Of a stretch of 64,000 bases of DNA, positions 39,712-45,718 are shown piece by piece (within the stretch, counting starts at the first letter, position 1; the number at the start of each line of letters is the position of its first letter). Both the position numbers and the translations under genes were made by a program. This DNA is from an uncultured Saprospiraceae bacterium. Its GTDB lineage: Bacteria > Bacteroidota > Bacteroidia > Chitinophagales > Saprospiraceae. The stretch lies in the NCBI GenBank assembly GCA_938015595.1, contig CALLPI010000015.1, positions 60,138-124,137 of the forward strand. Reading direction: 5' to 3'. Under the pieces are notes generated by a model. It was not told the origin of the DNA and searched no databases. It saw only the letters and a program-made list of their open reading frames with translations.

Positions 39712-42669
39712 TTATAGCCTCACGATAAACAATCCTCTGCTGTAAGTAGCTACAATAATCTCTTGCGGAGTACGCCAAAAGTAACTCACGGGCATGAAAA
39801 CACCAGAGTGCGGCAGTTGCCTCCAGGTATTGCCTCCGTCAGTAGAAGCAAAAATACCTTTGGAAACGGTTCCTACTAAAGCCACGTCGGGGTCAAATGG
39901 AGAAAAAGCCACACTCCAAATGGCGAAAGAGCCGCCATTGGAGAAAAACTGCCCGCCCGTGCGTTCATATACACTTCGAAAATCGCCAGCTTCAACCCAG
40001 TTATGCCCTCCATTACGGCTCATGTTCAAGTAGCCTGTTGATTTTTCTACTGCCAGTAGATGCTGTGGATCATTAGGGTTTACCGCAAACACAGGCCTGA
40101 AAAGAAACTGGCTACCCACCATGGCAATTCCTCCTCTCAATCCCAGCATGAAGGGATACTGCCAAGTAGGTATTGGCACAGAACTTCGACCTCCAGGATT
40201 TTCCAGGCGTCCTATTATCAAAGTATCATTAGGAGGATTCCCCTTTCGCATACCCACGGTAAGCCATATTGAATGATAGACGTTTTCTCCCACATGAGCA
40301 GGTTGCAGCGCAGTAGAGAATCCATCGCCGGGGCCACCTACCCGTACATATTGCGCTGCTGGTAAGTCTAGCCAGGAGCAGCCATTGTCTTTGGATATTT
40401 TCCACGGAAAAGTGACTTGCCCAGCAGCAGGCCTTGCATCGTGTATGAAGATCCCTTCGCCTAACCATATTGGCGAGCCCCAGCCGCTACCACTGGGGGA
40501 GTTAAATATGTTAGAATCCGCAAGACGGCATCCTTCGTACAGCCTGAACCCAGCGCTGTAGGGTACAAGCCCTGGAGTTTCAGACCATACAATAGTTTGA
40601 GGAGAATACTCAAATGGCCATAATCCCCTGCGATTGACTACCCAGCCTTCATTCCCGCCTCCTATTTCCCATGTACTCAGATCAAGCGCATTAGTATAGC
40701 CAAAGCTATTATCCATGGTGCCGATTATGAAGTCTCTTCCATTGCCGGTCAGGCCAAATAACTGCAAGGCATTCAAGCCACTGTTGGTTCCTTCGGTAAC
40801 CCAGTTCAGGCGCTCCAAAGCCGAGTTATTCATGTCGGCATGATGAAGCCCTCCATCGGAAGTAAGGATTATTTTCTGCCCTGCGCTAGAAGGTACAATA
40901 ACAAATTGCCGTATATCGTCATGTCCTGCAGTATAACCTGACGGACTTGGAAGCCAGCCAAACGCAGTGTTGGTTATCGCCGCTTGCAAGGCTGCCACGG
41001 CATTGCTGCCAGGCGCATACCCATAAAATGCCTTGAATTCATTAGATAGGTGTATTTCCAATTGGCGAGACATATTGTTGTAAAACAATGCTGTACTCAA
41101 GTACCCACCAGCGGGTACTTCATTCCTGTCTCTGCCAAGAATATTGCCCCTGCAAGGTGTCGTAAAATTCTGCCATGTGTACCCTGTATCGGCTGTAGCA
41201 TAGAGCTGCAGTGTCTTAAATTGGTCAATTTTACGGCAAGCAACCGCAACATTGCCATTCTGGTCAGTAGCCAAGCTATGGGTTTGGATGACCGGCAATG
41301 TCCAACTTCTGGGAATGTTCATGACCGATATCCAAGATCTCCCTTCGCTTTCTGCAGAAGAGCGGAAAATACCGTTTCTTCCCAGCCCTATCAATGAGCC
41401 GTTGCTCATGGTTTCTATGCTCACAAGACCAAGCGTGTTGTTATATACCACTTGCCACTCAGACGAGGTTGCCGGTTTGTACGCCACGCCAAATCTCCCA
41501 ATGGCATACAGGTCATTGTTTACTTTACTTTTCACGATTTTGTAAGCATCAATTTCGTTGCTTTGCAGTCGGGTAGAGGCAGTAAAAGTTGCTGGTTGCC
41601 AATTGCCGCCTGATATGCGTTGCCATATCAGTGGAGTAGCTTGGTTGTGGTAGGTATTCATTGTAGTAGCCCATACCCCGGCAGTGGCCGTCCAAAGCAA
41701 GCTGGTTACATTGTGCTGTCCGAAGTTGCTATGATGTGTCCAGGTGCGCGTACTGCTTAGGAAATTATTGCACTCAAAAACGCCGCCTGATTCGCCCGCT
41801 ACCAATACCTGGTTGGGGTCTGCAGGGTTGACTGCTATAGCAGCAATACGGCCATTCATAGGAAAGTTCATCGTGACAGGGGTTACCGTTGGCGAGGCAC
41901 TCAGGCGGTTGGGCGTGTAAACGCGCTGATATATTTCGCCGGCGCTGTTTACCAACCAGGGGCGGCCGTTCGTTTCTACGGCTATTTGCGTACCACCTCC
42001 ATCTACCTCGCCCCATTCTTCGCCATTTCTGAAATGTACGCTGAAATCAGAAGGGCCTCGGCGTATAGCGCCAATTACCCATACAGCGCCCGAGGCACCT
42101 ACAGCTATGTCCTTTCCGGCACCCCTGTATTCTTTCCAACTGCGGTCGGGCAATAGCTGGAAAATGCGGTCTCGGTCATTGACAATCCAGGGTCTGCCTG
42201 ATGGGCTTACTGAAATGCGCACGCCACCGCCAGGAATGGTTTCCCACCTGTTAGCACTTACATAGCGCTGTATGGCAAAACCTCCGCTTACAGCAGACTG
42301 GCTAATGATCCATACGCTGCCGTCGGCGCCTATGCCTATATCACGAGCGCGAGCGCCTACTACTTCTATCCAGCGGTTACCTTCCCGCCGCCATATCGTG
42401 CCGGCATCATTCACTACCCATGGCGCTCCGGCAGGGTCCACCGCTATGCGCACGCCGCCGCCATCTATTTGCTGCCAGGCGCTTCCCGTCCAGCGCTGTA
42501 TGGTAAAACCGCCTCCGGTAGGCGTGGCGCCAATTGCCCACACTGCGCCATTGGCGCCGATAGCTATGTCTTTGGCTCGGCCAGGACGGATACGCCATTC
42601 GTCTGCTCGTGAAGAAAAGCAAACGAACAACATAAGCAATACTGTCAAAATGTTTTTGTATGCTTTCAT
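39712..42669 (-). CDS. Secreted tectonin-repeat / BNR beta-propeller protein
   Basis: A 985-residue protein. Signal peptide MKAYKNILTVLLMLFVCFSSRADEW. Residues about 28-255 contain six tectonin-like repeats in three pairs (DIAIGANGAVWAIGATPTGGGFTIQRW, IAVDPAGAPWVVNDAGTIWRREGNRWIEV, and so on), which in other organisms form beta-propellers that bind lipopolysaccharide or sugars. Residues about 280-985 look like sortilin/BNR-type propellers with Asp-box fragments (LYATADTGYTWQNF, MSRNGGHNWVEAG, FASTDGGNTWRQLP). No T9SS sorting domain is visible at the C-terminus (TPQEIIVATYSRGLFIVRL), so secretion beyond the inner membrane is unresolved. A role in recognising surface glycans or foreign envelopes is inference. 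Confidence 0.88.
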   Translation of the reverse strand: MKAYKNILTVLLMLFVCFSSRADEWRIRPGRAKDIAIGANGAVWAIGATPTGGGFTIQRWTGSAWQQIDGGGVRIAVDPAGAPWVVNDAGTIWRREGNRWIEVVGARARDIGIGADGSVWIISQSAVSGGFAIQRYVSANRWETIPGGGVRISVSPSGRPWIVNDRDRIFQLLPDRSWKEYRGAGKDIAVGASGAVWVIGAIRRGPSDFSVHFRNGEEWGEVDGGGTQIAVETNGRPWLVNSAGEIYQRVYTPNRLSASPTVTPVTMNFPMNGRIAAIAVNPADPNQVLVAGESGGVFECNNFLSSTRTWTHHSNFGQHNVTSLLWTATAGVWATTMNTYHNQATPLIWQRISGGNWQPATFTASTRLQSNEIDAYKIVKSKVNNDLYAIGRFGVAYKPATSSEWQVVYNNTLGLVSIETMSNGSLIGLGRNGIFRSSAESEGRSWISVMNIPRSWTLPVIQTHSLATDQNGNVAVACRKIDQFKTLQLYATADTGYTWQNFTTPCRGNILGRDRNEVPAGGYLSTALFYNNMSRQLEIHLSNEFKAFYGYAPGSNAVAALQAAITNTAFGWLPSPSGYTAGHDDIRQFVIVPSSAGQKIILTSDGGLHHADMNNSALERLNWVTEGTNSGLNALQLFGLTGNGRDFIIGTMDNSFGYTNALDLSTWEIGGGNEGWVVNRRGLWPFEYSPQTIVWSETPGLVPYSAGFRLYEGCRLADSNIFNSPSGSGWGSPIWLGEGIFIHDARPAAGQVTFPWKISKDNGCSWLDLPAAQYVRVGGPGDGFSTALQPAHVGENVYHSIWLTVGMRKGNPPNDTLIIGRLENPGGRSSVPIPTWQYPFMLGLRGGIAMVGSQFLFRPVFAVNPNDPQHLLAVEKSTGYLNMSRNGGHNWVEAGDFRSVYERTGGQFFSNGGSFAIWSVAFSPFDPDVALVGTVSKGIFASTDGGNTWRQLPHSGVFMPVSYFWRTPQEIIVATYSRGLFIVRL

Positions 42670-43608: not shown

Positions 43609-44706
43609 CTATTCTTTCCTTGGCCTGAAATCCAGTAGCACTGAAATGACGTGCGAGAAGGTGTTTTGCCGGGAACCCAAGTCAGTGAAGGCGTAGTCTA
43701 GCCGGAGTGCGCCAACTTTTACTCCTGCGCCAATGGAGGGGCGTGCGCTTAGGATTTCCTCGCCACCAAAATCACGCTCGCGCTGAAACTGGCTTGTACC
43801 GCCTCGTAAAAACAGAAAGCGCTTGTAGTCCAGCTCAAGGCCAATGGCTGGGTCTATACTAAATGGGTTGCCCGAAATCAACGCGTTGCGTCGCCCATCG
43901 GTAGTTGCTATCAAGTCTATTTCTGGTGCAATACCCAGGTTTTTCCACACAAACCTGGATGTAATGCCGGCAATCAATTGAGGTCGAGTAATCTCTACGC
44001 TATTGATAGGTATCTCGTTGTTGGTCAGCTCAAGCACCTGTTTTTCTTGGTCGGTAAACTGAAACGACCAGGCGTTGAATGTGGTGGTAATGTCGCGTGC
44101 CAGTACACCCACGCGCCACTCACCCACTTTGTACAGTAGGCCGGCATCCGCACCGAAGCCCCACGAAGTAGCAAACGGCCCAATGCGGCGATGTACAATC
44201 TTCAAGTTGCCCCCCACGGCCAATTTACCCGAGGTAGGATTGAATAACTGTGCGTAGCTGAACAGCACGGCATAATCAGCTGCGGAGAACTCGCGCAAGT
44301 TGTCGTAGTTAATTGTGCCATCACTTTCATACAATGTCAGGGTATTGGGTATTTGGTCAATGCCGAATCGGATCAGTGAAAGCCCCAGGCGGCGGTGGTT
44401 GCTGGCCAGCGGAAGCACTACACCTGCATAGTCGAATTTGCCTACACCGCCAAACCATTCGGAGTGCATGGCGCCAAGCTGAAACCCACTGGGCAATTCC
44501 ATAGCCGCCAGTCCAGCCGGATTCCACACGCCTGACGTAACATCAGCCCCACTGGCTATCACCGCCAGTCCCATGCCTTGTGCACGAGCACCCACGCCAA
44601 TTGACAGAAATTCGTTACTGTATTTTTGTGCCTGTACAAGTCCGGCAAAGCAGCTCCAGGCCAGCAAAAGCAATTTTAGTCGAGCAGGAAGGTGGATGTA
44701 CTTCAT
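43609..44706 (-). CDS. PorV/PorQ family outer-membrane protein
   Basis: A 365-residue barrel. The signal peptide (MKYIHLPARLKLLLLAWSCFAGLVQAQ) is followed by the family opening YSNEFLSIGVGARAQGMGLAVIASGADVTSGVWNPAGLAAME and a run of amphipathic strands, ending LRLDYAFTDLGSRQNTFSHVISVLLDFRPRKE. PorV shuttles T9SS cargo to the attachment complex and PorQ is a related outer-membrane component; this paralogue could serve either role or be one of several family copies. It is relevant to the T9SS cargo encoded in this window. The track start at 44709 is a TTG; ATG 44706 is preferred. Confidence 0.88.
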   Translation of the reverse strand: MKYIHLPARLKLLLLAWSCFAGLVQAQKYSNEFLSIGVGARAQGMGLAVIASGADVTSGVWNPAGLAAMELPSGFQLGAMHSEWFGGVGKFDYAGVVLPLASNHRRLGLSLIRFGIDQIPNTLTLYESDGTINYDNLREFSAADYAVLFSYAQLFNPTSGKLAVGGNLKIVHRRIGPFATSWGFGADAGLLYKVGEWRVGVLARDITTTFNAWSFQFTDQEKQVLELTNNEIPINSVEITRPQLIAGITSRFVWKNLGIAPEIDLIATTDGRRNALISGNPFSIDPAIGLELDYKRFLFLRGGTSQFQRERDFGGEEILSARPSIGAGVKVGALRLDYAFTDLGSRQNTFSHVISVLLDFRPRKE

Positions 44707-44941
44707 CAAAAATTGTGGTTTAACTTCAATTCTTGCAGAACGTTCTTTTTGTGCCTATATTTTGCGAGAAGGGCAGGAGGAAAAGATTGGTTTAACATAA
44801 TACAAATTATAGGAGAAACATTTAGAGTTATGCACGGATGCACGAGGTTAATTACCTCCTCCTTACTTCGGCGAGCAGTTATTGGTGTTTGGGATGGAAT
44901 GCTTCGAGCCTCTGTTTAGTATTTAACATAATATTGCAATA

Positions 44942-45718
44942 CTATTGAAATCTCAATTCCACCATGTCTTCCAGTTCTAAGCCAAGTAAAGTAGTGGCTT
45001 TCCCCATGTACACGGCTATTTTCAGATAACCGGCATGATTGAATAAACACATTGCTTCGCCCACCGGAACATCGCTGTAGCGCTGCGAGAGTATGCACAG
45101 GGGGGCGTGGCGCTTGAATTGAAGGGTGAAGCTCCTCCCCTGCCCTATTGACTCGAAGAGCTGGCGCGAGACGTTGGTCACTGCATTGCCAAAGCTGTCC
45201 ACTTGTACTACAATGCCGCGGATGAAGTTGGCGCCTATGACGGGATGCAAGGCTATAGCCTGCCGGATAGACTGAACCGGCTCGCCAATTTGCTCCAACG
45301 GCCTGCCAGAAGCAATGTGCTCGGCTACAAAGGCATATAGCTGCTGAGCCTTGAAATTTACATCTTCGCTGTGCTCAATAGCAAACACAATACACTGTAA
45401 ATGAGGAAATAACAATGAGAAAAACCCATTGTCGGGGCCTACGAAGTAGTGCCCGTCTTTGGCAAAAGCCAGGAACTTGCGCTCCTGTGCGTACTCTATG
45501 CTGAGCCATACCAAATGTATGGTACCTATTGGAAAGTACTGCCATGCGCCACCCAGGGCAAAGGCGCCCGCTACAATGTCGAACCCTGATATGCCATGCG
45601 CTATGTCTACCAATTGCACTGCCGGCTGCGTGCACAATCTGTTCAGCAAGCAGCCCTTTAGTGCAGCCAGCGCGTAATCATTGTGGCTGAGGTCTGTAGT
45701 GATGGTTACAATCTGCAT
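44942..45718 (-). CDS. DUF62 (SAM hydroxide adenosyltransferase/fluorinase fold) protein with altered active site
   Basis: A 258-residue protein of the fluorinase/chlorinase/SAM-hydrolase fold: VTITTDLSHNDYALAALKGCLLNRL, VDIAHGISGFDIVAGAFALGGAWQYFPIGTIHLVW, HYFVGPDNGFFSLLF and, near the end, VVQVDSFGNAVTNV. The usual DUF62 enzymes contain DPGVGT.RR and FHGRD, supplying an Asp-Arg-His triad that activates water to split SAM into adenosine and methionine. Here those segments read SIEYAQERK and FKAQQ: the Arg remains, while the Asp and His are replaced by Ser and Lys. The protein may be inactive, use another nucleophile or bind SAM as a sensor. It follows the K+ channel gene by 44 bases on the same strand. 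Confidence 0.85.
   Translation of the reverse strand: MQIVTITTDLSHNDYALAALKGCLLNRLCTQPAVQLVDIAHGISGFDIVAGAFALGGAWQYFPIGTIHLVWLSIEYAQERKFLAFAKDGHYFVGPDNGFFSLLFPHLQCIVFAIEHSEDVNFKAQQLYAFVAEHIASGRPLEQIGEPVQSIRQAIALHPVIGANFIRGIVVQVDSFGNAVTNVSRQLFESIGQGRSFTLQFKRHAPLCILSQRYSDVPVGEAMCLFNHAGYLKIAVYMGKATTLLGLELEDMVELRFQ

Follow-up and report, generated by a model that had tools for sequence, protein, structure and literature searches.

The DNA analysed here, a 64-kb stretch from an uncultured Saprospiraceae bacterium that we refer to as the window, carries on its minus strand an intact, ATG-initiated open reading frame encoding a 258-aa protein, the only PF01887 gene of its genome (Table 1). Two Pfam domains, SAM_HAT_N (PF01887; 109.5 bits, cut-off 26.3) and SAM_HAT_C (PF20257; 80.7 bits, cut-off 25.5), together span the product and place it in the SAM_HAT/DUF62 superfamily. 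Its AlphaFold (AF2) model (pLDDT 93.8, pTM 0.84) predicts the alpha/beta/alpha N-domain and beta C-domain of this fold, and a Foldseek search of the PDB with this model matched 2zbu (E 6.5e-23), with all 40 matches at E ≤ 0.001 falling in the SAM_HAT/DUF62 family, hydrolases and halogenases included. A pseudogene reading was rejected on the grounds that the frame is intact and that pN (0.3) is far below pS (0.8), values which, though dS is saturated, suggest constraint at the protein level.

A voltage-gated K+ channel gene lies upstream on the same strand, 44 bp away. Two further minus-strand genes were noted. One (43609-44709) encodes a 366-aa protein lacking a Pfam match, which we take to resemble the PorV/PorQ-type outer membrane proteins of the type IX secretion system. 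The other (39712-42669) encodes a 985-aa secreted protein, the N-terminal third of which repeats GGxxIQRW...W..I.GGG; these are presumably tectonin-like motif repeats, followed by BNR-like repeats. No known RNA element or riboswitch was found in the 64-kb window or at the loci of five relatives.

Table 1. Features of the DUF62 gene in the window and of its product (triad residues in PH0463 numbering)
Feature	Position in the window	Strand	Basis
Bacteroidia-type (triad-less) DUF62/SAM_HAT protein, 258 aa	44942..45718	-	PF01887 + PF20257, AF2 model
Asp9, equivalent of fluorinase Asp16; 100% in both groups	45692..45694	-	Conservation; active-site residue in PMC4859513
SIEYAQERK, residues 73-81, on DPGVGTERR	45476..45502	-	Alignment; column entropy in triad-less branch near top
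Asp68 to Ser73	45500-45502	-	Alignment
Arg75 to Arg80	45479-45481	-	Alignment
PDNG, residues 95-98, equivalent of the PxNGL motif	45425..45436	-	Conservation; motif in PMC4859513
FKAQQ, residues 122-126, on FHGRD	45341..45355	-	Alignment
His127 to Lys123	45350-45352	-	Alignment
DSFGN, residues 174-178; IDxxFGN motif	45185..45199	-	Asp174 and Asn178 (fluorinase Asn215) 100% in both groups; PMC4859513

Triad residues of the window protein

The Asp-Arg-His triad is the conserved feature of SAM hydroxide adenosyltransferases (PMC4859513), and its conservation among DUF62 proteins has been called strict (PMC10491745). The first-pass annotation had read the window protein as one that lost two of these three residues while keeping the motifs of the fold, and both points were borne out. 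When the protein was aligned with PH0463, MJ1651 and the Thermotoga and Thermus proteins, phmmer and MAFFT paired SIEYAQERK with DPGVGTERR and NFKAQQ with TFHGRD without gaps; counting residues along the PH0463 sequence gave 68, 75 and 127, exactly the published triad numbers (PMC4859513). The window protein has Ser73, Arg80 and Lys123 at these positions, and its TTD, GPDNG and VDSFGNAVTN motifs are present.

The arginine that remains is present in only 5 of 38 Saprospiraceae and 8 of 108 triad-less relatives across the class, and since it is thus unconserved, the whole triad is in effect free to vary. Within the triad-less branch as a whole, the Asp persists in 26% and the His in none. We also considered that Asp and His might be supplied by adjacent residues, and rejected this: no conserved His, Asp or Glu occurs in either loop across the branch, and a search up to 8 columns away from the His position found no His in 91 of 108 triad-less relatives, so that no neighbouring residue consistently substitutes.

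Triad loss across the class Bacteroidia

To place this loss, we gathered PF01887 genes at family, order, class and phylum level, and found one in 218 of the 247 genomes of the class sample. Among the 154 distinct proteins compared, 41 carried both DPGVG and FHGRD and 113 carried neither; the 41 consist of 29 proteins from other classes of the phylum and 12 canonical copies, most of them second copies, from a small number of Bacteroidia genomes, while all native-type copies of the class (113/113) lacked both motifs, as did all 80 named loci from the GTDB collection. Twenty additional, lower-scoring loci outside the class likewise carried FHGRD, 19 of them together with DPxVG, which brings the relatives checked outside Bacteroidia that keep FHGRD to 49 of 49. 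Triad loss is an ancestral feature of the class, and not special to the window gene.

Masking the motif columns before tree building left the triad-less copies on one side of a single branch (bootstrap 92, SH-aLRT 80) that was seen in 89% of bootstrap trees, and in a quick tree of 152 rows a single change sufficed to account for the loss (support 84). The canonical copies inside Bacteroidia fell in two other tree groups, and for this reason look like later acquisitions beside the native gene. In at least ten Bacteroidia genomes a triad-less copy coexists with a canonical one that is placed elsewhere in the tree, as if the two had different jobs. Separately, two Bacteroidia genomes (G190 and G392; loci L112 and L062) have a canonical DRH copy and no detected triad-less copy, and are possible replacements. 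No viral relatives were confirmed, and among the papers searched we found none on Bacteroidia DUF62 proteins or their linkage to phoH, though they may have been mentioned before.

The window copy grouped with the triad-less copies under masked columns, its nearest relative being that of the same-genus locus L055 (100/96). It shares its branch, its losses and, in most cases, its single-copy state with other native Bacteroidia DUF62 proteins, such as those of Saprospira grandis and Neolewinella, and is 36-54% identical to most Saprospiraceae copies. Its end branch is longer than that of its congener (0.51 vs 0.23). A three-residue insertion (LCT, residues 28-30) that occurs in at most 2% of relatives, and departures at two near-invariant positions, Gly11 to Ser and Glu233 to Lys, mark it as the odd copy of its genus.

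Gene neighbourhood

A divergently oriented phoH gene lies directly upstream of 35 of the 49 class-level triad-less loci and of none of 11 canonical loci (Fisher p 1.3e-5), and an ABM-family gene (PF03992) lies downstream of 23 of these 49. Taken over all loci, the counts are 100/147 for phoH and 66/147 for ABM, these not being fully independent because the GTDB-collection loci partly overlap other sampled genomes. Often purC is found beyond phoH, and in a few loci gldF/gldG-like genes lie downstream. The divergent pair of DUF62 and ybeZ-like phoH, with ABM downstream and purC beyond phoH, was observed among loci L092-L171 and L174-L253 and is kept across much of Bacteroidia; in one family of the same order (f2; loci L101, L109 and L147-L151), a same-strand SDR gene stands upstream in place of phoH.

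The window genome has lost this arrangement: its phoH lies on contig C10 and its DUF62 gene on C15, with no divergent phoH beside it, whereas phoH adjoins DUF62 in both congeners. Unlike most native Bacteroidia copies, the window copy lacks a phoH link; it also evolves faster than that of its congener, and may for these reasons not be typical.

Conservation of the pocket and of the old catalytic loops

We then compared the columns of the pocket with those of the triad. Pocket features on record are fluorinase Asp16 and Asn215 and the PxNGL and IDxxFGN motifs (PMC4859513), and in the triad-less branch D9, D14, K21, D38, N97, G98, D174 and N178 are conserved at 97-100%. Placing those beyond the documented features on the nucleoside side is an assignment of our own. 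The columns surrounding the triad behave otherwise: their mean entropy rank rises from 0.08 in the canonical group to 0.79 in the triad-less branch, a shift that none of 20,000 sets drawn at random from the canonical-conserved columns equalled in a permutation test (p 5e-5); the pocket set remains at rank 0.02.

No fixed replacement residue was found in the old triad loops, either class-wide or within Saprospiraceae, and this speaks against a nucleophile site newly fixed there. Newly conserved positions of the branch lie outside these loops (His68, 100%; Arg195, 89%; Phe197; Phe226; Asn227). The Ser of the canonical GSxG loop is found in 55% of the branch and is His228 in the window protein; presumably the loop at 228 contacts the methionine end, as in the fluorinase structure, in which case the relaxed Ser would mean that the ligand may not be intact SAM. 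Together, the kept pocket and the freed catalytic loops suggest a nucleoside binder that left its old chemistry, and fit a new fixed nucleophile less well.

A proposed non-hydrolysing nucleoside-binding protein

The reading that we favour, with moderate confidence, is that the native Bacteroidia DUF62 is a non-hydrolysing protein that binds a nucleoside or SAM and is linked to PhoH in most relatives. It would represent an old, vertically inherited lineage within the SAM hydroxide adenosyltransferase fold, from which the Asp-Arg-His triad disappeared a single time, when the class arose or earlier. Such a protein would fold, and probably trimerise, as its relatives do, and most likely would still bind SAM or another adenine nucleoside, for instance adenosine, where its subunits meet; it would no longer activate water and hence presumably not hydrolyse its ligand. 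Its role would then be that of a ligand-binding sensor, carrier or partner subunit, in most Bacteroidia probably tied in function to the divergent phoH, which encodes a ybeZ-like NTPase, and often to the downstream ABM gene as well. The SAM-binding sensor proposed in the first-pass annotation is possible, and close to this reading. Counting against the reading are the moderate branch support, the chance that the window copy is atypical, the uncertainty about SAM as the ligand that follows from the GSxG Ser, and the fact that the same fold carries out adenosyl transfer without a triad in fluorinase and chlorinase (PMC10491745, PMC4859513).

This last point leads to the alternative that survives best, although we consider it unlikely: that the window protein is an adenosyltransferase using another nucleophile, a halide or a small molecule, as do SalL and fluorinase. 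It resembles SalL and fluorinase (FlA/FDAS) in overall fold (TM 0.78-0.86), in the missing triad and in the retained pocket Asp and Asn, the contacts of Asp16 and Asn215 type that the halogenases keep (PMC4859513, PMC10491745); its AF2 model matches SalL and fluorinase at TM 0.82-0.86. It differs from them in its low identity over the structural alignment (20-22%), and the triad-less branch has no fixed halide-site residues. In an ungapped motif alignment, Tyr76 takes the place of SalL Tyr70/fluorinase Thr80 and Ala124 that of Ser158/Gly131, yet neither is conserved in the branch, and the SalL-like Tyr, though present in 24 of 38 Saprospiraceae, was kept as a weak lead at 28% class-wide. The nucleophile side moreover ranks with the branch's most variable regions, and the match to the fluorinase/chlorinase equivalog model TIGR04507 is partial (42.2 bits, cut-off 400). 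With almost nine in ten Bacteroidia genomes having the gene, its product would also have to be very widespread and yet have escaped notice so far.

Next, and rather doubtful, is that the triad-less protein still hydrolyses SAM, perhaps (R,S)-SAM, by substrate positioning in place of the triad. Like the SAM hydroxide adenosyltransferases PH0463, MJ1651, TM 2ZBU and StDUF62, the window protein has both Pfam domains, the whole fold (TM 0.71-0.85), the PDNG and DxFGN motifs and the pair Asp9 and Asn178; its pocket residues are intact, one quarter of the branch retains the Asp, and the SN2 reaction of the halogenases needs little beyond positioning. Unlike these enzymes, it lacks the Asp and His of a triad to which water activation is ascribed (PMC10491745, PMC4859513). 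The loops around the nucleophile are unconstrained across the branch, and genomes that gained a canonical copy have retained the two side by side. The protein also falls far under the cut-offs of the NCBIfam (R)-SAM hydrolase equivalog models (83.1 bits against 350 and 65.3 against 470).

That binding of SAM or adenosine has been lost altogether in the branch, which would have been recruited instead as a structural element or partner of PhoH or ABM proteins, strikes us as improbable: the phoH and ABM linkage and the new conserved residues His68, Arg195, Phe197 and Asn227 outside the old loops would agree with it, but if no ligand is bound, it is difficult to see why Asp9, Asp174 and Asn178 should be invariant. 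Finally, a role as regulator of, or a shared operon with, the adjoining K+ channel, which the first-pass annotation had thought worth testing, is highly improbable and the operon was rejected, since despite the shared strand and short gap the channel lies directly upstream at 0 of 158 other loci, and in the two congeners its orthologues are found on a different contig or at a distance of 18 kb, with phoH beside DUF62 instead. Homologues with the same changes do form a distinct clade; a link of that clade to channel genes is not supported.

Returning to the favoured nucleoside-binding protein, a bolder version of it, quite unlikely as it stands, is that the class Bacteroidia turned a SAM hydrolase into a non-catalytic sensor of SAM or an adenine nucleoside that works with the PhoH/YbeZ NTPase, which would link methyl-donor status to RNA or ribosome metabolism. 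The class-wide loss of the triad means that the names 'SAM hydrolase' and 'halogenase' are probably misleading for this gene in most Bacteroidia genomes. The triad-less branch would constitute a natural experiment in how a fold can give up its chemistry and still retain the pocket for its ligand, and the conserved divergent phoH partner offers a concrete handle for testing its function.
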